A DNA stretch of 64,000 nucleotides from Streptomyces clavuligerus. Its GTDB lineage: Bacteria > Actinomycetota > Actinomycetes > Streptomycetales > Streptomycetaceae. The stretch lies in assembly GCF_005519465.1 (NCBI RefSeq), contig NZ_CP027859.1, positions 310,001-374,000 on the forward strand, written 5' to 3'. This document shows, one piece after another, positions 50,140 through 64,000 of the stretch. Below the pieces are notes generated by a model. The model ran no database searches and was not told the origin of the DNA. It worked only from the letters and a program-made list of their open reading frames with translations. Each line of letters begins with the position of its first letter. Within the stretch, counting starts at the first letter, position 1. The position numbers were made by a program, and so were the translations under genes.

Positions 50140-53100
50140 TCACGCGTCCCGCCGTTCGGGGATTCCCGGCCCAGGGCAGCAGGACGGAGCAGCGGAAGTG
50201 GCGATGGTCGCCGTGACTGCCCGGAGGTCCGCCACAGGGCGTCGCGGGGTGCGTCTACGGGGATCGTGGGCCGTGCGGTTGTTTCGGCTCTGTGTGGGGA
50301 AGGGGGCCGGGGGCATGCGGAGTTGGGGGCATCCAGGTCTCCGGGGGCCTCGGTGTCTTTCAGGAATGGATGGGTCGTAAATGGCCTGGCAGAGCCGGGT
50401 GACGGCGGTCCTTTTGTCGGGCAGGTCGGTATTCCAGAATTGAACGGTTCCGTCGCTGATGCCGACGGCGAGGGTGGGAGTGTCAGAGCTGAAGGCGAGG
50501 GAGAGGAACCGCTTGCTGCTGTCGCTGAGGGTTTGACGCAGGGTTCCGGTCTCCGTGTCCCAGAGGCGGATGCGGGATCCGGTGGTTCCGGCTGTGGCCA
50601 GGGTTCTTCCGTCCGGGCTGAAAGCGACTGAGCTGACAGTGCCGTCAAGGCTGGTGATGGTGCGGTGCTCTTTGAAGGTTGTGGTATTCCACAGCCTCAC
50701 GGATCCGCTTCCCGCTCCGGCTGCGAGGAGTCCGTCAGAGCTGAGGGGCAGCCGGTCGCTGTCGTGCTGGCCCGTTCCGAGGGTGCCACGGAGTTTGCCG
50801 GTGGCGACATCTCTCAGTTGCACCTCGGCGCCGTCGCTGTTCATCACGACCAGAGAGGCTCCGTCGGGACTGAAGGCGAGTGAGCTTACGGCCACGTTGC
50901 GGGTGTTGATGGTGCGGAGCGGTTTTCCCGTGTGGGTGTTCAGCAGCATCGTGCGGTCGGACCCTGCGATGGCGAGGATGGTCCCGTCAGGGCTGAAGGC
51001 GAGCGCTTGAACGAAAGGCTGATCCGAGGGGGCATCACGCACCTCGGCGGGAATGGTGAGGCGGGTTCGTCCAGTGCGGGTTTCCCGCAGGTCGACGGAG
51101 CCGTCACTGCTGCTGGTGGCAATGGCCATGCCGTCCGGACTCAGGTCGAATGGCGCCATCACATCGTTGATCGTCAGGCGCCGCCGGTGGGACGGTAGGT
51201 TCCAGATATGCAGGGTGTGTTTGGACAGCAGTCTCAAGAAAGGGTCCCTGGGCCCTTCGGTGCCGAAGGCTGTGGCGAGGGTTCTTCCGTCCTGGGCAAA
51301 GTCCATGGAGACGATGCCGGTGGCGTGGCCGCTGCGGAGAGTGCGCCGGACCGGGTGGCTGGAGGCCCACTGGCGGATTCCTAATCGGTCGACGGTGACC
51401 AGGACGCTGCTGTCCTTGCTGAAGGCGAGCGCGGAGATGAGGTCGAAGTACGCGGTGAGGGTGGTGTGGACCGCTCCTTTGGCGAGGTCCCACAGACGTA
51501 TCGTCGTGTCCTGGTCATCAGTGGTGGCGAGGGTCTTTCCGTCGGGGCTGAAGTGCACCCGTCGCACCTGTCCGCGGTGGCCGACCAAAACCCGTCGTAG
51601 CGTGCGGGTGGCAATGGCCCACAGGCCTACGGTGCCGTCCCGCTGGCTGACCGCTAGGGTCTCTCCGTCCGGGCTGAAGCCGATCAGGGATGTGTGCAGT
51701 GGCAGTCTGTGGCCGTCATACTCTGGCTCAGCGGTCTGGTCGATGCCCTGAGCCTTGCGGGTGAGCATTCTGTGGCTGCCGGTCGTGGTGTTCCACAGAC
51801 GTACGGTGCCGTCCTTGGCGCTGCTGGCGAGGGTGGTGCCGTCCGGGGCGAAGGTGACCGTGTGGATGGCGTTCGAGTGACCGGCGAGAGTCCGGGCACT
51901 GCCTGAGCGGATGTCCCACAGCCGGATCACTCCCTGAGTGTCGCCCGTGGCCAGGACATGGCCGTCGGGGCTGTAGGCGAGGGCGGTCACGTCCTTGCGG
52001 TGGCCGGTGAATGTGGCGCGCAGCTTGCCGGACAGCGCGTCGCGGAGGAGCACTCTGGGTCCGATGTTGCCGGCGAGTGTGGTGCCGTCGGGGCTGTAGG
52101 ACAGTACGGAGGCGGCCTCGGACCTCTTCGGGGCAGAGTGGTTCAGTGTCCTGTCGCCGCTGACGGTGCCCAGCAGAACGGTCTTGTGGCCGTCCTGAGA
52201 GAAGGCCACGGTCCGCAGATCCGGGCTGATTGCGGCCGCTCTGCTGGAGAAGATACGTCTTGGGCGGCCGTCGAAGCCCGCTTCCACTGAAGCGGAGCGC
52301 TCGGTTCTGAGGGGTAGCGTGGCTGCACGGTAGAGATTGCCCACCGCTTCGGCGGTGGCGGCGGTGTGGTGTGCCTGGACGGCGAGGCGAGTCGCTTGTT
52401 TCGGGTCGCCTTCGAACAGGGAGGCTGACTCGGCGGCGAGTTGGCGGGAGTGGGCGGTCCGTTCGGAGGCGCGGGCCCGGTCGCGTTCCCGGGTGCTGGT
52501 GCGGTTCTGGTGCCAGGCGGTCAGGCTCGCCAGGAGCGAGAGGGTGAGGAGGACGGAGAGCCCGGCGGTGGAGCGGCGCAGGCGGCGGGTGGTGCGGGCG
52601 CGGGCCTGCTGTTCCTCGTCCTGGGCGGTGGTGGCGGCAGTGAGGAAGGCGTGTTCGGTGGGGGTGAGGTCGTGGTGTGGGCGGGGGAAGGCGTCCTGGG
52701 CGGTGGCGAGGCGGGTGCCGCGGTAGAGGGCGCCGGGGTCGTGGTCGAGTTCGGTCCAGGTGGCAGTGTCGGTGGTGAGGCGGCGGTGGACGATGAGACG
52801 GGTGCGTTCTTCGTCGATCCAGGTGCGCAGGCGTGGCCAGGCGGTGATGAGGGCTTCGTGGGCGAGGTCGGCGGTGTCGTCGTCGAGGGTGATGAGGCGG
52901 GCGCGGGTGAGGTGTTCGAGGACGGTCGCGGTCTCCTGGGGGGCGGCGGCTTCGAGTTCGGTCCGGGGTGCGGGGCGGCGGGTGTCCTGGGCGCCCTGTC
53001 CGGGGGTGATGAGGCGGAGCATGATGCGACGAGCATGATCAGCTTGTTGGGGGGTGAGTTGGTTGTAGGTGTGTTCGGCGGTGTCGGCGACGGCGCCGTG

Positions 53101-54195
53101 GATGCCGCCGATGGCCTCGTAGGCGGCGAGGGTGAGGGTGCGGCCCCGGCGCCGTCGCCAGACCTCCAGGAGAGCGTGGGACATCAGGGGCAGCCCGCCG
53201 GGTTCCGCGGCGGTCTCCTCGACGATGCGGGCGGTCAGCTCCCGTTCCACGATCAGTCCGGCGGCCCGTGCCGGGCCGACCACCGCCTGGCGGAGATCGG
53301 CCGCCGTCATGGGGCCGAGGGCCAGGTGCGCCGTCCGCAGCACCTCCACCAGACCGGGATGTCCGGTGCAGTGGCCGTAGAAGTCGGCGCGGACCCCGAT
53401 CACGACCCGCAGCCGGCTGTCCGGCGCCTGGGCCGCTAGGAGCAGCCCGACGAACCGGGCCCGCTCGTCCGCGTCCTGGCAGAGAGTGAAAACCTCCTCG
53501 AACTGATCCACCACCACGACCGTGTCCCCACCTCCACCCCCGGCTCTGGCTTCGGCGGCTCCGGCCGCTTCCGGCACGGCAACCGCCTCGCCAGGGGTGC
53601 CCGATGCGGGGACGAGGACGTGGGCGTGGGTGGCGGCGGGGCGGGATCCCGGCGTGATGACCCGGATCGCCACGCAGTCCACCGGCCGGTTCGCCGGGTC
53701 CTGAAGCACGGGGATGAGGCCGGCGCGCAGCAGGGATGATTTGCCGCTGCCGGAGGCTCCGGCGAGGAGGACGAGGCGGTGTTCGGCGAGCAGGCCGGTG
53801 AGGCGGAAGAGGAGTTGCTCGCGGCCGAAGAAGAGGTCGCGGTCGCCGGGCTCGAAGCGGGCCAGTCCCCGGTACGGCGCGTCCCAGGCCGGGCGGTCGT
53901 CGACGACACGAGCTGCTTTCAGTTCTTCCAGCGCACGGGCGGTCTCCCGCCAGCGGGCCTCCCACTCCCCCCGGTCCCCTCCGCAGACCGTCACATACGC
54001 GAGGGCCAGTGGGAGCGACGGCAGTTCGTCCCCCCGCGCGGCGGCGGCGAGCATGCTCACCGAATACCCCGCACGGGTCGCCAAGGCCCGGTACGTCGGA
54101 CCACCCGCTGCTCTACGTAACTCCCTCAGTTCGTGTGCGAACCGTTCCACCGGACCCGCCTCCGGGTCCAGCGGACGCTCCCGGCGACCCGCCAT
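50140..54195 (-). CDS. Large HTH - nSTAND ATPase - transmembrane - WD40 protein
   Basis: 1,351 residues from the ATG at 54195 (GGAG nine bases upstream). Domain order: XRE-type HTH (about 15-75, ELRELRRAAGGPTYRALATR); nSTAND NTPase with Walker A LLAGASGSGKSSLLRAG (about 143-159), Walker B VVVVDQFEEVFTL and the sensor-like RVVIGVRADFYGHC; winged-helix part; one hydrophobic segment STAGLSVLLTLSLLASLTAW (about 550-570) predicted to span the membrane; then about 13-14 WD40 blades (repeated FSPDG and (L/R)W(D/N)), enough for two propellers. Such proteins act as ATP-driven signal switches or anti-phage/conflict sensors. The C-terminal 60 residues are basic and low in complexity, unlike typical family ends, so the 3' end may have lost phase. 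Confidence 0.92.
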   Translation of the reverse strand: MAGRRERPLDPEAGPVERFAHELRELRRAAGGPTYRALATRAGYSVSMLAAAARGDELPSLPLALAYVTVCGGDRGEWEARWRETARALEELKAARVVDDRPAWDAPYRGLARFEPGDRDLFFGREQLLFRLTGLLAEHRLVLLAGASGSGKSSLLRAGLIPVLQDPANRPVDCVAIRVITPGSRPAATHAHVLVPASGTPGEAVAVPEAAGAAEARAGGGGGDTVVVVDQFEEVFTLCQDADERARFVGLLLAAQAPDSRLRVVIGVRADFYGHCTGHPGLVEVLRTAHLALGPMTAADLRQAVVGPARAAGLIVERELTARIVEETAAEPGGLPLMSHALLEVWRRRRGRTLTLAAYEAIGGIHGAVADTAEHTYNQLTPQQADHARRIMLRLITPGQGAQDTRRPAPRTELEAAAPQETATVLEHLTRARLITLDDDTADLAHEALITAWPRLRTWIDEERTRLIVHRRLTTDTATWTELDHDPGALYRGTRLATAQDAFPRPHHDLTPTEHAFLTAATTAQDEEQQARARTTRRLRRSTAGLSVLLTLSLLASLTAWHQNRTSTRERDRARASERTAHSRQLAAESASLFEGDPKQATRLAVQAHHTAATAEAVGNLYRAATLPLRTERSASVEAGFDGRPRRIFSSRAAAISPDLRTVAFSQDGHKTVLLGTVSGDRTLNHSAPKRSEAASVLSYSPDGTTLAGNIGPRVLLRDALSGKLRATFTGHRKDVTALAYSPDGHVLATGDTQGVIRLWDIRSGSARTLAGHSNAIHTVTFAPDGTTLASSAKDGTVRLWNTTTGSHRMLTRKAQGIDQTAEPEYDGHRLPLHTSLIGFSPDGETLAVSQRDGTVGLWAIATRTLRRVLVGHRGQVRRVHFSPDGKTLATTDDQDTTIRLWDLAKGAVHTTLTAYFDLISALAFSKDSSVLVTVDRLGIRQWASSHPVRRTLRSGHATGIVSMDFAQDGRTLATAFGTEGPRDPFLRLLSKHTLHIWNLPSHRRRLTINDVMAPFDLSPDGMAIATSSSDGSVDLRETRTGRTRLTIPAEVRDAPSDQPFVQALAFSPDGTILAIAGSDRTMLLNTHTGKPLRTINTRNVAVSSLAFSPDGASLVVMNSDGAEVQLRDVATGKLRGTLGTGQHDSDRLPLSSDGLLAAGAGSGSVRLWNTTTFKEHRTITSLDGTVSSVAFSPDGRTLATAGTTGSRIRLWDTETGTLRQTLSDSSKRFLSLAFSSDTPTLAVGISDGTVQFWNTDLPDKRTAVTRLCQAIYDPSIPERHRGPRRPGCPQLRMPPAPFPTQSRNNRTAHDPRRRTPRRPVADLRAVTATIATSAAPSCCPGPGIPERRDA

Positions 54196-54449
54196 CACAC
54201 CCCACCCCACTCCCTGATATCGGTTCCTGTCCGTGCTGCGCGGCCGGGATATCTGCCCGGCACCTCTATCGAACCGCCCCCGGGCATTGTGCGGACAGCA
54301 CGGAACAGGCTTTCCGCACAATGCCCGGCCCGCTGGAATCAAGGTGTCTGCCCCGGCAGGCGCCCAGTCCGCAGAGCCGGACGACCGGACGCCACCGCCG
54401 GCGCAAGACCGAAGCGAACAAGATCACAACCACTGAGAGGAGTACGACA

Positions 54450-54776: not shown

Positions 54777-55299
54777 CCCCACTGCACGGCCGGGCGGAGA
54801 ACGCCTACGAAAACGGAAACCGGCAACGGCCACCCGAGTGGTTCGCCGAGCGGACCACACCTCAAGCCACAGCGTCAGCCACTGGCCGCCGCTGAGCACG
54901 AAACCTGAGGACCCGGCCGCACCACGGGTGGTGGCCCGGGCGTAGCGACCCGGGCCACCACTCGCCATCACACCCAGCCCTTCTCCGCCCGGCCGCGTGC
55001 CTGCCTGGACCAGAGATCACCGGCTTCCGGGAAAACGCCGGCGTCGATGCGGGAAGCACCGGCCGTAGCCGGCGGGCATGACCTGGCCTCGGACCAACTC
55101 GATCTCGTCGAGCCTGTGCGCGCTCAGCATCCACAGGGCCCGGATGGCCAGAATCAGGGCCGGGACCGCGTCCGCCGCGAGCACCCGCTCGGGCGCGCGG
55201 GTGGTTGGGCGAAACCGGCCCCCACCGGACGCCGCGGGATGGGTCCTCGCCCGGCGGGGACAGTGACCAGGCCGGTGCCCGCCCAGACGTGGACGGAGC
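54777..55299. other. Gap containing a terminator; otherwise no gene
   Basis: Apart from the hairpin at 54928-54961, no gene or regulatory site was recognised. Arginine-rich frames are shadows. Confidence 0.4.
54928..54961 (+). terminator. Perfect hairpin downstream of the small secreted protein gene
   Basis: gtggtggcccggg, loop cgtagcga, cccgggccaccac: exact 13-bp stem, 150 bases after the stop. Confidence 0.75.
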
Positions 55300-55309
55300 C
55301 TCCCCGTAC

Positions 55310-55696
55310 GCGCCGTGGTGGCCGTCGACGTAGCCGGTGGACCAAGGGATGGGGCAGGCGCCGTTGTGGCCGGGGTCCGGGCACAGGACGCGGGCGAGAC
55401 CTGCGCGGAGCCGGTCCATCTCCTTTCGGGACGGCAGGAGCACGCCGATGCGGAACTCGTGGATGCTCCGGGTGCCGGGGTCCTTGCCGGGCCAGTGGCC
55501 GGTCCACTGGGAGGGGAGCTCGTCGTAGAACTCGGCGAGCGTCATCTCCCCGTCCCGGGTCGTCCGGTCCCCGGTCCAGCACGGCGAGCTCGTACCGGAC
55601 CGTCCTCTCGTCCAGGACGCGCCGGAGCCCCCGTTCGGTGTCCTCCACACCAGCGGGGGTGGCGTAGACACCGATCTGGATCTCGAAGAGAGGCAC
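55310..55696 (-). pseudogene. Decayed paralogue of the gene at 56502
   Basis: The ATG at 55696 starts MPLFEIQIGVYATPAGVEDT and ERGLRRVLDERTVRYELAVL, then one frameshift near 55570 is needed to reach TRDGEMTLAEFYDELPSQWT, GHWPGKDPGTRSIHEFRIGV, LLPSRKEMDRLRAGLARVLC and STGYVDGHHGAYGE. It breaks off before the last 20 residues. Otherwise about 90 percent like the intact copy. Confidence 0.85.
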
Positions 55697-56501: not shown

Positions 56502-56954
56502 TTACGGTCTCGGTGCGGCTTCGAGCCGGCCGTAGGTGTCGTGGAGGTAGCGCTCGTTCTCCTCGTACTCTCCGTGGTGGCCGTCGACGTATCCGGTGGA
56601 CCAGGGGATGGGGCAGGCGCCGTCGTGGCCGGGGTCCGGGCACAGGACGCGGGCGAGACCTGCGCGAAGCTGGTCCATCTCCTTCCGGGACGGCAGCAGT
56701 ACGCCGATGCGGAACTCGTGGACGCTCCGGGTGCCGGGGTCCTCGCCGGGACGGTGGCCGGTCCACTGGGAGGGGAGCTCGTCGTAGAACTCGGCGAGCG
56801 TCATCTCCCCGTCCCGGGTCTTCCGGTCCTCATCCAGCACGGCGAGCTCATACCGGACCGCCCGCTCCTCCAGAAGGCGCCGCAGCCCCCGTTCAGTGTC
56901 CTCGACGCCGCCGGGGGTGGCGTAGACGCCGATCTGGATCTCGAAGAGGTGCAT
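56502..56954 (-). CDS. Conserved hypothetical protein, intact copy of a locally multiplied family
   Basis: 150 residues from the ATG at 56954 with GGGAACC-type purines upstream. Sequence: MHLFEIQIGVYATPGGVEDT, ERGLRRLLEERAVRYELAVL, EMTLAEFYDELPSQWTGHRP, VHEFRIGVLLPSRKEMDQLR, VLCPDPGHDGACPIPWSTGY and ENERYLHDTYGRLEAA. The two cysteines and histidine in CPDPGHDGAC could hold a metal. No signal or membrane part. Function unknown to me. A decayed copy lies just downstream (55310-55696) and a C-terminal fragment at 44914-45000. Confidence 0.8.
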   Translation of the reverse strand: MHLFEIQIGVYATPGGVEDTERGLRRLLEERAVRYELAVLDEDRKTRDGEMTLAEFYDELPSQWTGHRPGEDPGTRSVHEFRIGVLLPSRKEMDQLRAGLARVLCPDPGHDGACPIPWSTGYVDGHHGEYEENERYLHDTYGRLEAAPRP

Positions 56955-57501: not shown

Positions 57502-58632
57502 TCACTCGGGCAGGGCGCACGGTGTGCTCGCCTGGTGGATGAGCTGGGCGTTGGTGCCGTGGTGGTGGCCGAGGGCGAGACCATGGCGGGGCAGCAGGCG
57601 AAGGCGGTGCAGCGTCCGGTGCTGGTGGGCGGTCACCGGATGACGGATCAGGCCGAGGAAGTCGGGGTACCGGTCGGGGCCGGTGGTGAAGACATCGGGC
57701 GCGGGCGGTTCGCACGGGCCGGGTCCAGGGGTGCCGGTGGCGGAATCGATTCGGGTCTGGAGGACCCGGTCAGCGGTGGCCTGGGTCGCGAGGGTGAGGC
57801 CGAACCAGTGCTGGAGGTGGTGGGGCCAGAGCTGGGCTTTGCGTTCGCGGCCGTCGGGGCCGTGCAGCGGGTCCAGACTGGTGCCGGTGGTGAGGGCGTG
57901 GGTGACGGTGGGGTGTTGGGTGGGGTGGGGTGGTGTTCCGTTGTTGAGGTGGTGGCGGATGGTGGGGGTCCAGCCGAGGGCGTCGAGGAGGCCGAGGCCG
58001 ATGGTGGTGGCGGAGGGCCAGGGCAGGAGGTCGAGGGTGCCGTCCGGGTTGGGGCGGGTGTAGCAGCAGTCGGTGGCGAGGAGGGTGGCTCCGGTGGTGG
58101 CGAGGGTGAGGGCGGTGGTGGTTTTGCCGGCGCCGGGGCTGCCGAGGGTGAGGATGCCGTGTCTGTGGGGCGGGGTGGCGGCGGAGGCGTGGAGGAGGGT
58201 CCATCCGTCGGTGGTGAGCCGGGTGTGGAGGAGGTGGCGGGTGAGGCGGGTGGCGGTGGTCGCGAGGGCGCAGGGGTGCCGGTGTTCGGGGTGGTCGGGT
58301 CCGGTGTGGGTGATCTCCAGGTGCTGGTGGGTGGGGGTGTAGCGGTAGGTGAGGGCGGGGTGGGTGAGGTTGCGGGCGGTGACGGTGCCGTCGGGGTGGG
58401 GGGTGTAGGCGAGGTGGTCGCGGGCGTAGACGGCGCGGTGGGTGTGGGGGTGGTCGTGGTCGAGGGGCGGTCCGTCGTGGAGGGCGGTGACGCGGGGCCC
58501 GGCGGGCGTGGTGGGTGTGGGGGTTTCGGGCCAGTGCGGGGTGAAGTAGGTGCGGGCCCAGTCGGTGATGTGGGTGGTGTCGGAGTTGAGGGTGATGGGG
58601 TGTCCGCCGGTGGTGAGGGTGAGGGTGGTCAC
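57502..58632 (-). CDS. HprK-like P-loop ATPase (second of the operon, last gene)
   Basis: 376 residues from a GTG at 58632 that overlaps the previous stop by 4 bases (GTGA). The N-terminal third (TGGHPITLNSDTTHITDWAR, YFTPHWPETPTPTTPAGPRV) is beta-rich. The kinase-like core follows: TRLTTDGWTLLHASAA, then GILTLGSPGAGKTTTALTLA (P-loop), LLATDCCYTRPNPDGTLDLL (Walker B-like DD/DC region) and GPDGRERKAQLWPHHLQHWF. This arrangement matches HPr-kinase-like proteins of actinobacteria, some of which act in peptide or small-molecule pathways rather than on HPr. The broken gene at 4078-5313 is a paralogue. Very high GC and Pro/Thr-rich, but frame is intact. Confidence 0.85.
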   Translation of the reverse strand: MTTLTLTTGGHPITLNSDTTHITDWARTYFTPHWPETPTPTTPAGPRVTALHDGPPLDHDHPHTHRAVYARDHLAYTPHPDGTVTARNLTHPALTYRYTPTHQHLEITHTGPDHPEHRHPCALATTATRLTRHLLHTRLTTDGWTLLHASAATPPHRHGILTLGSPGAGKTTTALTLATTGATLLATDCCYTRPNPDGTLDLLPWPSATTIGLGLLDALGWTPTIRHHLNNGTPPHPTQHPTVTHALTTGTSLDPLHGPDGRERKAQLWPHHLQHWFGLTLATQATADRVLQTRIDSATGTPGPGPCEPPAPDVFTTGPDRYPDFLGLIRHPVTAHQHRTLHRLRLLPRHGLALGHHHGTNAQLIHQASTPCALPE

Positions 58633-60335
58633 GGGCGGTCTCCGTCTGGGTGGTCGGGCGACTGGTGGGGGGTGCGGGTGTGGAGGCGTCCGGTAGTGCC
58701 GTAGCCGACGACCGCTGCCCGCCCGGGGCGCCGGCCGGGCACGGCGCCCGGTACGGGACCACCCGTCGGCGCGGCGGCGGTGGCGGGGTGGTTGGTGCAG
58801 TGGAGGGTGTAGTAGGCGTCCCACAGGCCGGCGGCCTGGATGGCGGTGTCGGCCCAGGCGGTGTGCACGCCCGGCGGCGGGGGTGTCTTCGTGGTGGTGA
58901 GGGCGTGGGCGGCGATGAGGGTGGCGGCGCGGTAGGCGTCGTAGCCGCCGGTGGGGATGGAGTCGGCTTCGTAGAGGTTGAGGGAGCGGCCGTCGCCGAG
59001 GAGGGTGATCGTGCGGGGGCCGGGGAGTGTGAAGCGGACCCCGAGGCCGGGGACGGTCGTCCGGCTGTACCTGGGGTGTTCGGTGAGGTGGGAGAAGTCG
59101 GCGGTGGCGAAGGGTGCCAGAAGTACTTGGTCGGGGAGGAGGGGGATGTCGTCCGCGGTGAGGGCCTGTTCGCCGGTGGTGCCGATGATCACCGTGGGGG
59201 TGGTGGCCAGGAGGGCGTCGGTGAGGGTGCGGCAGGTGGTGTATCCGTCTTCAGCGGCGCCGATGAGGGTGGGCAGGTCGGTGTCGACGACCGTGAGTCG
59301 GCAGCCCAGGGCGCGCAGTTGGGCGGCGAGGCGGGAGCCGAGGACGCCGTAGCCGAGGAGGACGATCGGGCGGCCGATGAGTTTGCGGTCCGGGAGGATC
59401 GTGCGCAGGCGGCGCAGGCAGGAGTCGGCGATCTCCCGGTACCCGAGCCTGGTTTTGGCCTGGGAGCGGGCGAGGTTGAGGACGGGGATGGCGAGCGGCG
59501 GGGCGGCGGCGATGCGTTTGAGGCCGCTGACGGTGAGCTCCAGCGCGGCGTCCGCCCGGTGGCGCGCGGCGTGGGTGCCGTAGCCGCGGGCCAGCAGTCC
59601 GCCGTCGTCGACCACCAGGACCCGGCGCCCCGCCCGGTGGGCGGCGTCGATGAACGCGTCGACCGTCTCCCCAACGGCCGCGAGCTCGGGGGTGTGGGCG
59701 GCCGGGTTGTTGACGTGGGCGTTGTCGAGGAGGGTGGAGGTGTAGCCGCGGGCGGTGAAGGTGGCGTGGACGCGGTCACGGCCAAGCGTGCGGTCGCCCT
59801 TGTCCAGGGTGAGTATCCACCGCGCGGGAATCCCGGCGCGTTCCATCGCGGTCACGAAGCCGACGCTGTGCTTCAGGTAGTGGTCGCGGAAGATCATCGC
59901 CCAGCCGGTGAGCGGCGGGGCGGGGGTGCTGTAGTGGTTGAGGAGCGGCATCCCGGTCCGGATGCCGTTGAGTTCGGCGGGGGTATATGGCAGGGCGTGG
60001 TGGTCGGTGAGGTGCCGGTGCAGCGCCTCGGCCGGTAACCGGCCTTCCGGGCGGGGCTCGATCAGGACCTCCGTCCCGGCGCCGCTCTGCGGGGACTGCC
60101 TGATGGTGAACGGTTCGGCGGGCGCGGCTGGTTTCCACCGGACGTCCGCCATCGGCTCGCCCGCCTCCGTCCGCAGCCACAGGGTGCGAGGACCCGCCAG
60201 GTCGGCGGTGAACCCGTGGGCGTGGGCGAACACCGTCACCGCATCCCGGATCTCCTCGCAGGGCAGGGGAACACGGACCGTGGTCCACCGGTCGTCGGGC
60301 TGCTCGTTCGTGGTCGCCGTACTGGTCACACTCAT
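58629..60335 (-). CDS. SAH-hydrolase-like NAD-binding protein with long N-terminal domain
   Basis: 568 residues from the ATG at 60335 (GGAG 7 bases upstream). The first about 130 residues are a unique domain (WTTVRVPLPCEEIRDAVTVF, GPRTLWLRTEAGEPMADVRW). Then comes a region similar to S-adenosylhomocysteine hydrolase: FRDHYLKHSVGFVTAMERAG, RVLVVDDGGLLARGYGTHAA, NLARSQAKTRLGYREIADSC and the NAD motif RPIVLLGYGVLGSRLAAQLR (GxGxxG) with VVDTDLPTLIGAAEDGY. SAHase has GFGDVGKG here, so cofactor binding is likely, while classical SAH-binding residues are not evident. It may be an oxidoreductase- or hydrolase-like enzyme on a nucleoside or sugar derivative. Central member of the operon. Confidence 0.75.
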   Translation of the reverse strand: MSVTSTATTNEQPDDRWTTVRVPLPCEEIRDAVTVFAHAHGFTADLAGPRTLWLRTEAGEPMADVRWKPAAPAEPFTIRQSPQSGAGTEVLIEPRPEGRLPAEALHRHLTDHHALPYTPAELNGIRTGMPLLNHYSTPAPPLTGWAMIFRDHYLKHSVGFVTAMERAGIPARWILTLDKGDRTLGRDRVHATFTARGYTSTLLDNAHVNNPAAHTPELAAVGETVDAFIDAAHRAGRRVLVVDDGGLLARGYGTHAARHRADAALELTVSGLKRIAAAPPLAIPVLNLARSQAKTRLGYREIADSCLRRLRTILPDRKLIGRPIVLLGYGVLGSRLAAQLRALGCRLTVVDTDLPTLIGAAEDGYTTCRTLTDALLATTPTVIIGTTGEQALTADDIPLLPDQVLLAPFATADFSHLTEHPRYSRTTVPGLGVRFTLPGPRTITLLGDGRSLNLYEADSIPTGGYDAYRAATLIAAHALTTTKTPPPPGVHTAWADTAIQAAGLWDAYYTLHCTNHPATAAAPTGGPVPGAVPGRRPGRAAVVGYGTTGRLHTRTPHQSPDHPDGDRP

Positions 60336-60405
60336 CGGAACGCTCCGGACGAAGAGGAAAGATGAGGAGGAAGTGCTCGGCGCCTGCGGGGCGGGCGCCC
60401 CGCGG

Positions 60406-61473
60406 CTACTGGGGCCCGGCCGCTTCGGCGAGGGCCTGTTCGACGTCAGGCAGCTGGTCCAGGAGGCGGGTCGCGGCCTCGTGCCGCAGAAGCCAGAACG
60501 CGTCGAGGTCGTCCTGGAGCAGACCGGGCTTGAGGTAGTGGTCCTTCACCCCGTACAGGCTCGTCGTGAGCTGGATCAGCGCGATGCGGGCGCAGCCGGT
60601 GGTGTCGGCAGCCGTGTGGTGGGGGTTGGCACGCCGGTAGGCGTCGACAAGGCGGACGCCTGCGCCGATCCAGTCGGGGTCGTGGACAACGGTGCGTGGG
60701 TCGAAGGCGATCCGTCCCAGCTCGTACGCGATGAGTTCGGGTGCGGGCGGGAGGAAGTCGAGAACACCCGTCAGGGTGTCACCGTCGAAATGGAGGTTGA
60801 CGGCCGAGTAGTCGCCGTGGAGAACCTGAGTCGTCATCCCGTCGGGCAGTCCCGCGATCAGCCCGGGCAGGTGTCCGAGTGCGGCGCGGCGCTCGGTCAA
60901 CGTGCGGACCGCCTCGGTGTCGAAGCTGTCCGGGGTGGGGCGGTCGGCGATGGAGTCGAGGAGCTGATCGACGGTCGCCGTGGCCTTGGCCGCCGGGTCG
61001 GTGGTGCGCCACTTGGCCAGCCGCCGCGATTCGCCCCCTGCTGCGGCGGGATGATCGGCGAAGGCCGTGTGGAGGAGGCCGAGCGTGCGGCCGGCGGCCT
61101 CCTGCTGCCCCGGGGTCAGCCCGTCTTCGACGGTGCGGCCGGGCATCCACTCCCAGACCGATACGGCGAGCTGGTCGGTGGTGGCGATGGTGCCGCCGGT
61201 CCGGGTGGGGCGCGGAACGGCGACGGGGACGCCGTGCTCACCGGCGAGACGGCTCTGGCCGATCGCCTCGCGCTCCGCTGCGAGGTCTGTCCCGGGCAAG
61301 TAGTGCTTCACGAACAGCACCCCACCGGCATCGTCGGCACGGTAGTTGATGGTGTTCTGCCCGGCAGGAAGACGGGTGAGGCGGACACCGTCCAGGTCGT
61401 AGGCGGTCTCCAGCAGCGCGCCGAGTTCTGTGGCCGGGTCCGGAGCGGCAGTGTGAGCGGTCGGGGTGGGCAC
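60406..61473 (-). CDS. Phosphotransferase (APH/homoserine-kinase-like)
   Basis: 355 residues from a GTG at 61473, GAGGAG seven bases upstream. The N-terminal ATP part reads RLPAGQNTINYRADDAGGVL with FVKHYLPGTDLAAEREAIGQ. The catalytic loop is MTTQVLHGDYSAVNLHFDGD (HGDxxxxN) followed by TGVLDFLPPAPELIAYELGR, the metal-binding D. The last 100 residues are helical. The family phosphorylates alcohols of small molecules such as aminoglycosides, choline or sugar-like compounds. Lying between the TIM-barrel and the NAD-binding proteins, it probably phosphorylates the shared intermediate. Confidence 0.85.
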   Translation of the reverse strand: MPTPTAHTAAPDPATELGALLETAYDLDGVRLTRLPAGQNTINYRADDAGGVLFVKHYLPGTDLAAEREAIGQSRLAGEHGVPVAVPRPTRTGGTIATTDQLAVSVWEWMPGRTVEDGLTPGQQEAAGRTLGLLHTAFADHPAAAGGESRRLAKWRTTDPAAKATATVDQLLDSIADRPTPDSFDTEAVRTLTERRAALGHLPGLIAGLPDGMTTQVLHGDYSAVNLHFDGDTLTGVLDFLPPAPELIAYELGRIAFDPRTVVHDPDWIGAGVRLVDAYRRANPHHTAADTTGCARIALIQLTTSLYGVKDHYLKPGLLQDDLDAFWLLRHEAATRLLDQLPDVEQALAEAAGPQ

Positions 61474-61484
61474 GGGCTGGCTCC

Positions 61485-62300
61485 TCAAGGCGTGTGGATG
61501 GGGGACGAACACCCTAGGCCCGCGGGCGGGGTGGTGGTGACGAGGTTCGTCCACCAGGTGACGGCCTTGCGGTATCGGGCCAGGCACGCGGCCGGGGTGC
61601 GGGGGTGGCCGGTCCACTCGAAAGCGGTCTCCACCATCTGCCCGGCCCGGATCCGCGCGAGGACGCGGGCGGCCACGGACCGCGAGCCGGGGCTGGTCAA
61701 TCCGGTGCCGGGGTCGGACAGGTGCAGCACCCGCACCGCGCCAAACACCCGTGCGAGCACGGCATCCTCCTGGGCGTCCGGGAGGGCGGGGGCGAGCTGA
61801 GCGGTGTCTGCCAGCAGACCGAGCCCGCCTTCGAGCAGCGGCCGGAGCTCTGTGTGCGGGGTGGGGGTGAGCCAGGCGGGGTGGTGGAGTTCGGCGAGCA
61901 GCGGCACGGCGACCGCGGGCAGCATTTGGTCCGCCCAGGCGCCGGGTGTGTCCGGTGGGTGGGCGGCGAGGAGCCGCACCCAGTCGGCGCCGAGCCGGAC
62001 GGCGGCGTCCGCCAGGCGCTCCAGCTCTGCGCGGGACGAGTTGCGTACGGCGGGGTCGGGGTGGAGGAGGTCGGCGAGGTCGAGGTCCGCGGTCACCCCC
62101 GTGATCGGCACCGTCTCTGCCGCGGCCCGCGCCCAAGCGTCCAGCTCCGGGCCGGGCCGGCGGGTGAGGTCGTATCCGCGCGGGCCGCCGCGCAGGTGCA
62201 CGAACCCGATCCCCGCCCGGTGGGCGACGTTCAGGAGGCCCGGTACGTCCAGGCCGCGAATGCCGATGCTGTAGAGCCCGACCGGCGGCACCATCGTCAT
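61485..62300 (-). CDS. TIM-barrel isomerase/epimerase-like protein
   Basis: 271 residues from the ATG at 62300, overlapping the MDR gene stop by 4 bases (ATGA). Sequence features of the sugar-phosphate isomerase / xylose-isomerase-like TIM barrel: VGLYSIGIRGLDVPGLLNVA, AGIGFVHLRGG, VPITGVTADLDLADL, RLADAAVRLGADWVRLLAAH-like beta4, LLAELHHPAWLTPTP (LxExHxx, metal ligand region), GLGLLADTAQLAPALP (the D of strand 6) and VRVLHLSDPGTGLTSPGSRS (HxxD/SDP). Members epimerise or isomerise sugars and inositols with a divalent metal. Eleven bases before the phosphotransferase gene. Confidence 0.8.
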   Translation of the reverse strand: MTMVPPVGLYSIGIRGLDVPGLLNVAHRAGIGFVHLRGGPRGYDLTRRPGPELDAWARAAAETVPITGVTADLDLADLLHPDPAVRNSSRAELERLADAAVRLGADWVRLLAAHPPDTPGAWADQMLPAVAVPLLAELHHPAWLTPTPHTELRPLLEGGLGLLADTAQLAPALPDAQEDAVLARVFGAVRVLHLSDPGTGLTSPGSRSVAARVLARIRAGQMVETAFEWTGHPRTPAACLARYRKAVTWWTNLVTTTPPAGLGCSSPIHTP

Positions 62301-63214
62301 CGGGTCGTCCAGTCGAAGACGATGACCGGATCAGCGGGCCGGGACGGGGAGTTCAGCAGGGCGTAGACCCCGGGGGCCTTGTCGCCGGGTACGATCCGGC
62401 ACCAGGCGGCCAGCAGACCCGGGTCCACCACCTGCGTGATCCACTCTACGCACTCCGTGAACGCCTCCCCGTACACGCCCGGCGGGGCCGGGGCGAGCTC
62501 GTGCATCCCGACGACCACGATGCCGTTGCGGTGCGCCTCCCGTACGGGCAGGACCGTCTCAGGGCCGGGGGTGCCGAGCAGGCCGAGGACCCCGCCGGGC
62601 GCGGTCAGCTCCAGTGCCTGCCCGGGCTCCCCGGTCGCATCGACCACCAGCCCCGCAGGGCGCGCCGCGTCCGGTGCGGTGAGGGTGACGTAGGGGGCGC
62701 GGCCGATCGGCGGATGGCGGCGGCCGGTGACCACGGTGACGCGGTCGGCGCCGCGGCGGTGGAGCTCCAGGACGCAGCCGAGCGCGACGGCCCCTGACCC
62801 GACCACCACCGGCCGGTCGAAGTCCGCGGCAGCTGGGAGGCGGTCGAGGGCGAGGCGGGCGATGTGCTGGAACCGCGCGACGGCGAGCGCGGTGACCGGC
62901 ACGGTGCCGGGGGCGGTGAGCGTGCCGGGGGCGGCCGGGTCGAAGGCGGCGCCGTGCGGGGCCGGGGCCAGCACCCACCTGCCCGGTCCGTCACCGGCTC
63001 CCAGGGTGCGGCCGATCGCCATGTAGCCGGCGTCCCGGCCGGGCCCTGCGAGGTGACGGCGCTCCGTCCCCGGACTCAGTACGCTGAACAGGCCCTGTAC
63101 CCATCCGTCCGGGAGCCGTTTCGCCGGTGGTGGGCGGAGGAGGGCGTGGCCGTGGGCGAGGTGGACCCGGGCACCGTGGTATCGGGGCCGGGCGGGCGGT
63201 TCGGGTGTTATCAC
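62297..63214 (-). CDS. MDR-type oxidoreductase, zinc ligands not evident
   Basis: 305 residues from a GTG at 63214 that overlaps the HprK-like stop by 4 bases. The fold of medium-chain dehydrogenases is visible: a short GroES-like part (GLFSVLSPGTERRHLAGPGR, GPGRWVLAPAPHGAAF), then the Rossmann part FDRPVVVGSGAVALGCVLEL (GxGxxxxG), ATGEPGQALELTAPGGVLGL and GIVVVGMHELAPAPPGVYGE. No catalytic Cys/His zinc site or structural four-cysteine loop is present, so it acts without zinc or has lost redox activity. It could oxidise or reduce a cyclitol or sugar alcohol in the operon's pathway. Confidence 0.85.
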   Translation of the reverse strand: MITPEPPARPRYHGARVHLAHGHALLRPPPAKRLPDGWVQGLFSVLSPGTERRHLAGPGRDAGYMAIGRTLGAGDGPGRWVLAPAPHGAAFDPAAPGTLTAPGTVPVTALAVARFQHIARLALDRLPAAADFDRPVVVGSGAVALGCVLELHRRGADRVTVVTGRRHPPIGRAPYVTLTAPDAARPAGLVVDATGEPGQALELTAPGGVLGLLGTPGPETVLPVREAHRNGIVVVGMHELAPAPPGVYGEAFTECVEWITQVVDPGLLAAWCRIVPGDKAPGVYALLNSPSRPADPVIVFDWTTR

Positions 63215-64000
63215 GACGGGCCTCCGACAGGGGCGTGGGTGAGGTGTTCGATCTGGTCGGCCAGTTGGCGGGGCGTGCCGCGGGCGGTGTGGAGCGGGGC
63301 CCGGTCGGCGAGCGCGCGGACCAGGAGGAGACGGCGGTTGGCGAGCGGTTCCGTTTCGAGGGTTCGCAGGACGAGGTCGCCGTGGTCGAGGACCCGGTCG
63401 AGGAGGTGGGAGCTGGCCCGCCACCACACGGACACCGCGGTGTGGGCGTCCAGGAGCTCCGGGGCGGCGCGGGCCCGGGGGTCGCCGTCGACGTCTACCG
63501 CCACGGCGGCGGTGAGCGGCACCGGCCCGCCGGGGGCCCGGCCCCGGAGGCCGGGGTGGCCGGCCAGGTCGACCCGGTCCCCGGGGCTGGCGGGCAAGGG
63601 AAGGTGGGGAAACCAGCGGCGCAGGGCGCCGGGGCGGACGCTGAACGCGCTCGTCCCGCCCACCACCTCGTATCCGGTGCTGCCGGGGCGTGGGGTGTCG
63701 AGGAGGGTCACGTCCCCGGCGAGGACCCGCCAGCCGTGCCCGGCGAGGGCGAGCGCCGTCATGGTCTTGCCCGCCCCGTGCCCGCCGAGCAGCAGCACCG
63801 CCGCCCCGGCCCGCTCGACGGCCACAGCGTGCAGGGCCAGAGTGCCGCCGGCCAGATGGAGAAGGTGCAGATGGGCGTTGACCAGCCGCCGCCTATCCCC
63901 CACTCCAGCGCCTTTGGGCAGCCGCGCCACGGCACCGGCACGGTCCGGGCAGGGTTGTGGTGAGGCGGTGACGCCGGGAAGGTGCGGAAGGTCCGCCTCC
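63211..64000 (-). CDS. HprK-like P-loop ATPase (first of the operon in window; 5' end probably outside)
   Basis: The frame is open to the right edge; a GTG at 63930 is possible, but no stop occurs upstream and EADLPHLPG precedes it in phase. At least 239 residues lie in the window. The core reads RLVNAHLHLLHLAGGTLALH, AVAVERAGAAVLLLGGHGAG and KTMTALALAGHGWRVLAGDV (P-loop GGHGAGKT), then GTSAFSVRPGALRRWFPHLP and DRVDLAGHPGLRGRAPGG. This is the compact HprK-like type, different from the one at 57502, so the operon carries two. The C-terminal helices contain RLLLVRALADRAPLHTARGT. Confidence 0.75.
   Translation of the reverse strand, partial: EADLPHLPGVTASPQPCPDRAGAVARLPKGAGVGDRRRLVNAHLHLLHLAGGTLALHAVAVERAGAAVLLLGGHGAGKTMTALALAGHGWRVLAGDVTLLDTPRPGSTGYEVVGGTSAFSVRPGALRRWFPHLPLPASPGDRVDLAGHPGLRGRAPGGPVPLTAAVAVDVDGDPRARAAPELLDAHTAVSVWWRASSHLLDRVLDHGDLVLRTLETEPLANRRLLLVRALADRAPLHTARGTPRQLADQIEHLTHAPVGGPS

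Follow-up and report, generated by a model that had tools for sequence, protein, structure and literature searches.

The 64,000-nucleotide stretch of Streptomyces clavuligerus DNA studied here (the 1,795,495-base contig NZ_CP027859.1, positions 310,001 to 374,000; hereafter the window) ends in an operon of minus-strand genes, located on megaplasmid pSCL4. Our results showed that this operon belongs to a sharply delimited, uncharacterized actinobacterial cassette, which combines an unusual fusion of two oxidoreductases with up to three paralogues resembling HPr kinase (HprK), and that the S. clavuligerus copy has lost one half of the fusion. From sequence and by analogy with known systems, the cassette would encode a small-molecule pathway, most likely biosynthetic, acting on a sugar, a cyclitol, or a nucleoside-like polyol by NAD-dependent transient-ketone chemistry and kinase steps, a reading to which we give an even chance.

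The operon has seven genes. The first two encode HprK-like proteins, K1 (64113 to about 65213, past the window edge) and the P-loop protein K2 (301 aa; 63211..64116, with 63211..64000 in the window; PF07475, E 1.3e-4). They are followed by a medium-chain dehydrogenase/reductase-like oxidoreductase (MDR; 305 aa, 62297..63214), which had only sub-threshold Pfam matches; a xylose-isomerase-like (AP_endonuc_2) TIM barrel (TIM; 271 aa, 61485..62300; PF01261, E 1.1e-6); an APH phosphotransferase, or kinase (60406..61473; PF01636, E 2.5e-20); a truncated, divergent protein resembling S-adenosylhomocysteine hydrolase (SAHase; 568 aa, 58629..60335; PF00670, E 3.5e-8; ahcY, E 3.3e-13); and a third HprK-like P-loop protein, K3 (376 aa, 57502..58632; PF07475, E 0.021). 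Position 63214 is probably the MDR start, a 376-aa open reading frame (ORF) being merely the longest open frame. Four junctions overlap by 4 bases (K1/K2, 63214/63211, 62300/62297, and 58632/58629); gaps of 11 bases (TIM/APH) and 70 bases (APH/SAHase-like) separate the remaining genes. All seven frames are open, without internal stops, and the third-codon guanine plus cytosine (GC) fraction is 0.87–0.92.

A first-pass annotation of the window had described a coupled operon of six genes, with three of these overlaps and both gaps, whose products are likely made together. The overlaps and gaps were confirmed in the sequence, and the tight layout supports the coupling. The genes number seven, as K2 is cut by the window edge and K1 was found on extension past 64000, and the paired HprK-like domains turned out to be three. 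The enzyme classes then proposed (HprK-like, MDR-like, TIM-barrel, APH-type, and SAHase-like) stood; the in-frame loss within the SAHase-like gene had been missed.

Relatives of K1, K2, MDR, TIM, and APH are clustered in other actinobacteria, at 34–63% identity to the S. clavuligerus copies, so the grouping is not due to chance. A scan of genome contigs gave 57 loci, which tblastn classed as 23 type I (APH present, and HprK-like genes where the contig permits), 33 type II, and one other. Our table held 28 loci, and 26 were counted as type I: S. clavuligerus, four plasmids, twenty loci from the scan, and L044. L043 and L056 were excluded as incomplete clusters, and L072 (a frameshifted assembly in which Gfo is present), L110, L115, L143, and L145 also stayed outside the 26. 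Apparent same-contig pairs were counted once (L009/L041, L062/L042, L077/L144, L072/L055, L110/L043, and L115/L056).

The gene-order search suggested by the first-pass annotation thus returned 26 loci with a recurring set, K1-K2-(HAD)-MDR-TIM-(GT4)-APH-[SAHase-like + Gfo fusion]-(K3), in the same order in most of them (L073 and L082 are rearranged). TIM, APH, and the SAHase-like part were present in all 26 loci, K2 and MDR in 25 each, Gfo in 24, and K1 in 21. The variable genes, absent from the earlier picture in the case of GT4 and HAD, were the GT4 glycosyltransferase (13 loci), K3 (11), and a HAD phosphatase (10); the GT4 and HAD identities come from Pfam on example proteins, and a HAD mark in L063, a weak match far from the core, was ignored. 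K3 and GT4 never occurred together in the 26. K3 was confined to Streptomyces, where 11 of 12 loci have it; GT4 occurred in 12 of the 14 loci outside that genus and, within it, in L044 alone. A K3-type gene occupies the position of K1 in L064 and L065, and in L082 (Kitasatospora mediocidica) the SAHase-like and Gfo parts are separate genes. L066 starts mid-cluster and L083 ends inside the SAHase-like part, both at contig edges, and some genes are split over two frames (APH in L067 and L044, GT4 in L071). In 12 of the 26 stretches there is a relative of the L010 regulator; both examples tested belonged to the NsdA family.

The cassette is patchily distributed. The K2 profile (E <= 1e-15) matched 4 of 394 genomes of the class, S. 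clavuligerus included, and all four carry a type I cluster. The fusion profile (E 1e-30) matched nine of the 394; among the five lacking K2, G714 carries a type II cluster, and G530, G558, G738, and G484 have a distant SAHase-like or Gfo match only. In a Streptomyces sample, 25 of 392 genomes had some SAHase-like match at 1e-20, counting both types and distant ones. Several copies of the cluster are plasmid-borne.

The three closest relatives of the S. clavuligerus SAHase-like product (81–84% identity) have 908–909 residues and consist of a divergent SAHase-like domain fused to a downstream Gfo/Idh/MocA oxidoreductase domain. The S. clavuligerus protein is 340–341 residues shorter. It lacks the Gfo/Idh/MocA domain, with about 17 starting residues left (58671..58721, minus strand, from the alignment with the fusions). 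At the deletion junction, the 17 residues of the Gfo start continue in frame into a stretch of 13 residues matching the very C-terminal end of the fusion; neither the reading frame nor the 4-base overlap with K3 was disrupted. A short HTRT/RTRT repeat may have had a role in the loss; the junctions of the relatives (NPDC000594, NPDC059816, and NPDC088789) were compared as protein only. Two S. clavuligerus plasmid records matched the protein at 100% over residues 1–562 of 568, junction region included. The Gfo half had no match in the S. clavuligerus genome at E 0.001, and the same query was positive in two control genomes. Because the Gfo half is lost and no replacement was found in the genome, the S. 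clavuligerus pathway is probably blocked or altered, perhaps rerouted, at the Gfo step.

Such a loss is not unique to S. clavuligerus. In S. niphimycinicus (L043/L110, same contig), the SAHase-like frame closes shortly after the linker; the approximately 15 kb of contig beyond the SAHase-like gene contained neither a Gfo nor a K3 match. P0013, with 620 residues, ends within the Gfo domain.

The S. clavuligerus operon could be a decaying, non-functional remnant, and we take this seriously, at slightly below an even chance. The in-frame loss without a second copy in the genome points that way. So does the retention of the Gfo domain or gene in 24 of the 25 other type I loci that could be judged (L083 ends at the contig edge), the sole other Gfo-less locus being that of S. 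niphimycinicus, which also lacks a K3 match. However, all seven genes are otherwise open, with high third-codon GC and intact overlaps, and the loss itself disturbed neither the frame nor the overlap with K3. S. niphimycinicus, a second lineage, retains the SAHase-like part without Gfo, and free-standing SAHase-like proteins occur in type II clusters, though beside a Gfo gene. The S. niphimycinicus case cuts both ways, as it may reflect decay or a role of the SAHase-like part alone, and it left our estimates unchanged.

Type II clusters lack the kinases. In the 33 loci, tblastn found no match to K1, K2, K3, MDR, TIM, or APH, and Gfo directly followed the SAHase-like gene in every one. A second Gfo is usual. 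A B12-type radical SAM relative was present in 32 of the 33, an O-methyltransferase in 16 (one at 31% identity), and a beta-lactamase-like protein in 12; these domain calls derive from L045 and L046. The type II loci are L045–L054, L078–L079, L084–L109, L111–L114, and L116, with Clavibacter and Rathayibacter among the hosts.

The recurrence of the SAHase-like/Gfo pair in both cluster types supports the mechanism that we propose for the small-molecule pathway. The NAD domains of the Gfo and SAHase-like parts would oxidize a hydroxyl to a transient ketone, which would enable elimination or epimerization of a neighboring group. MDR and TIM would act on the keto intermediates, and APH, possibly with the HprK-like proteins, would phosphorylate the small molecule. 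Where present, GT4 would glycosylate it and HAD would dephosphorylate it. The S. clavuligerus operon should then halt at the Gfo step or work around it. We favor this mechanism because the logic of three precedents for transient-ketone chemistry or SAHase-like dehydration (AgmF, sulfoquinovosidases, and keto-glycoside eliminases) fits Gfo, SAHase-like, TIM, and MDR together.

Among known systems, the SAHase-like family is close to SAHase itself (AdoHcyase), with which it shares an NAD-binding domain and aligned GxGxxG, DDGG, catalytic-Lys, and first-His positions; it differs by an N-terminal extension of roughly 115 aa, found in most members, and by the Gfo fusion in close relatives. Across the family alignment, GxGxxG is conserved, as are the Lys, the Asp of DDGG, and the first of the catalytic His residues. 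The S. clavuligerus protein scored 49.2 bits against the adenosylhomocysteinase equivalog, whose cut-off is 497.6, and the sole PF05221 match of the genome, a canonical SAHase, sits on the other contig. By these sequence features, the protein is SAHase-derived and is not a SAHase. A SAHase-like enzyme within a small-molecule pathway is known from angustmycin synthesis, where AgmF is described, in the available text, as an NAD+-dependent nucleoside dehydratase that requires H56, D129, K184, D188, and H299 (PMC8599513).

For the Gfo half, which keeps EKP and GYEW.HM in 13 aligned sequences including both cluster types, the nearest solved relatives are 8qc2/8qc3 (profile E 1.6e-9, distant). These come from a paper that, in the part available, deals with NAD+-dependent sulfoquinovosidases of family GH188 that transiently oxidize C3 (PMC10755693). 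Their C3 oxidation serves as the model mechanism, whereas the relationship is distant, the cassette core shows no sulfoquinovose genes, and the Gfo half is absent in S. clavuligerus. A further likeness is an Agrobacterium operon for beta-elimination of 3-keto-glycosides in which, as far as the accessible text goes, the elimination is carried out by a TIM-barrel protein annotated as a putative sugar phosphate isomerase and a Gfo oxidoreductase is encoded alongside (PMC10628242). It too combines a Gfo enzyme with proteins called "sugar phosphate isomerase", of which one is a solved TIM barrel; however, that text names no SAHase-like or HprK-like gene, and the two operons are likened by description, not by sequence. 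The MDR family profile weakly matched alcohol dehydrogenase 8wwd (E 5.3e-6). APH passed its Pfam cut-off (73.7 bits vs. 23.2) and keeps HGDYS, the following Asn, and the downstream Asp in alignment. The invariant residues of the TIM family (E137, H139, D165, H193, and E228) may form a metal site.

Several findings weigh against the proposed pathway. The SAHase-like family has no equivalents of the SAHase residues D190, H301, and H353 or of the C-terminal KPDHYRY. Judged by SAHase numbering, it keeps counterparts of three of the five residues essential in AgmF and lacks those of D188 and H299. The TIM match to PF01261 (28.9 bits, E 1.1e-6) lies just below the cut-off of 31.1 and the TIM family profile found no significant solved relative, so TIM could be either an eliminase or an isomerase. 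The S. clavuligerus operon contains neither GT4 nor HAD; no GT4 was found elsewhere in the genome, in a search without a positive control. Finally, because S. niphimycinicus also keeps the SAHase-like part without Gfo, that part may have its own role.

A catabolic cassette, in which a rare glycoside is opened or cleaved via 3-keto intermediates and the sugar is phosphorylated and then metabolized, is an alternative that we regard as unlikely. It would suit the relationship of the Gfo half to NAD+-dependent sulfoquinovosidases, the oxidation–elimination operon for glycosides that encodes sugar phosphate isomerases alongside a Gfo oxidoreductase (PMC10628242, available text), and the presence of an APH-type kinase. 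Yet no family outside the core, transporters included, was shared by more than four of the 28 loci (ORFs of at least 70 aa), half of the type I loci (13/26) encode a glycosyltransferase, and presence is patchy (4/394 genomes), with several plasmid copies. We lean, though not strongly, toward biosynthesis over catabolism, since GT4 occurs, no transporter recurs, and the distribution is patchy.

The three HprK-like proteins are the other unusual component of the cassette. The P-loop G....GK[ST] is conserved in the family alignments of all three, and in the K2 family it is followed by an invariant Asp. The proteins are mutually related in profile–profile comparison (87%, 98.5%, and 97.7%), the K3 family matching K1 at 98.5% (E 3.2e-15) and K2 at 97.7% (E 2e-12); the K3 alignment also includes paralogues from outside the cluster. 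None reached a curated cut-off: for PF07475 (33.3 bits), K2, cut at the window edge, scored 21.9 and K3 14.8; for TIGR00679 (240 bits), they scored 18.6 and 13.4. K1 had no Pfam match at E 0.01. Against the PDB, the K2 family profile matched HPr kinase 1jb1 (E 0.0024), and the K1 family profile found no HPr kinase at E 1. The likeness to HPr kinase/phosphorylase and to the HprK-related kinases A/B covers the P-loop region and the following Asp, whereas the cassette proteins match over about 30–60 residues, below curated cut-offs, and occur as three paralogues in a metabolic operon. The fold is thus a prediction from sequence and profile comparison, with resemblance to HPr kinase only around the P-loop. 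The earlier statement that an HPr partner is lacking holds for the operon; the genome has one HPr gene, on the other contig. PF07475 matched four places in the genome weakly, none reaching the cut-off, three of them in the operon. The strongest was a fourth HprK-like locus on the other contig, G000:C1:6435917-6436078 (L146), whose neighborhood holds no cassette member but a weak radical SAM match.

The first-pass annotation had suggested modification of a cyclitol, sugar, or peptide; the small-molecule part remains the likeliest and the peptide part found no support. Modification of a ribosomal peptide by the HprK-like kinases, by analogy with lasso-peptide clusters, is very improbable: the literature that pairs HPr kinase with biosynthetic gene clusters is mostly on lasso peptides, among the matches listed and as far as the sources were available, but among small ORFs (20–110 aa) up to 800 bases from either end of the operon, none was common to more than 4 of 17 loci, those four all from Streptomyces, the gaps inside the S. 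clavuligerus operon are just 11 and 70 bases, and the core has no peptide-maturation enzyme. An anti-phage defence operon is the least credible explanation, suggested by plasmid-borne P-loop proteins, two weak PADLOC matches over 35–38 residues (E 0.002–0.004), and one sub-threshold match of a GT4 to GT4-conflict (E 0.006), but opposed by the absence of any PADLOC match at E 0.001 or better among 10 proteins and of any PHROGs match at E 0.001 among seven, and by a membership that is mostly metabolic enzymes.

Returning to the small-molecule pathway, we offer a bolder version of it tentatively, as less likely than not. The intact fusion may be a single-chain tandem NAD enzyme that passes a ketone between its two oxidoreductase domains and works with HprK-fold proteins that phosphorylate a small molecule instead of HPr. 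Such actinobacterial natural-product pathways would form a class not described before, and S. clavuligerus would be a natural deletion mutant of it. If true, small-molecule phosphorylation would be a new role for the HprK fold. The cassette sits on a plasmid known for secondary-metabolite clusters, and the missing domain would be a concrete explanation if the S. clavuligerus copy proves silent; the product would be best sought in the intact relatives, for instance the type I clusters of Streptomyces sp. NBC_01216 (L009) or NBC_01456 (L010). The first-pass annotation had matched the operon to no named pathway, in agreement with our literature search by title and abstract, mostly outside subscription journals, which returned no description of this cluster among the matches listed. 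In the main text of the pSCL4 transcriptome paper, as available (PMC5702194), we did not find SCLAV_p02/p03 tags, HprK, phosphotransferase, or oxidoreductase.

Promoter and terminator scans at both operon ends gave nothing useful. Upstream of K1 lies a divergent regulator region (L006:13702-15115), where a helix-turn-helix (HTH) fragment and a longer ORF, read in a different frame, may together be a single frameshifted gene. The regulator that accompanies K1 elsewhere gave no match to this region. Also upstream of the operon, L006:15896-17364 contains thioredoxin-reductase-like and isochorismatase-like ORFs, with matches below the cut-offs. On the other side, two related neighboring ORFs (window 55154-55696 and 56502-56954) both start with M[PH]LFEIQIGVYATP.GVEDTERGLR. 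The second had no NCBIfam match; the first, compared with it by eye, seems to be frameshifted. Further away, a 1400-aa ORF at window 50140-54342 appears by eye to combine HTH, ATPase, and WD-repeat-like parts.

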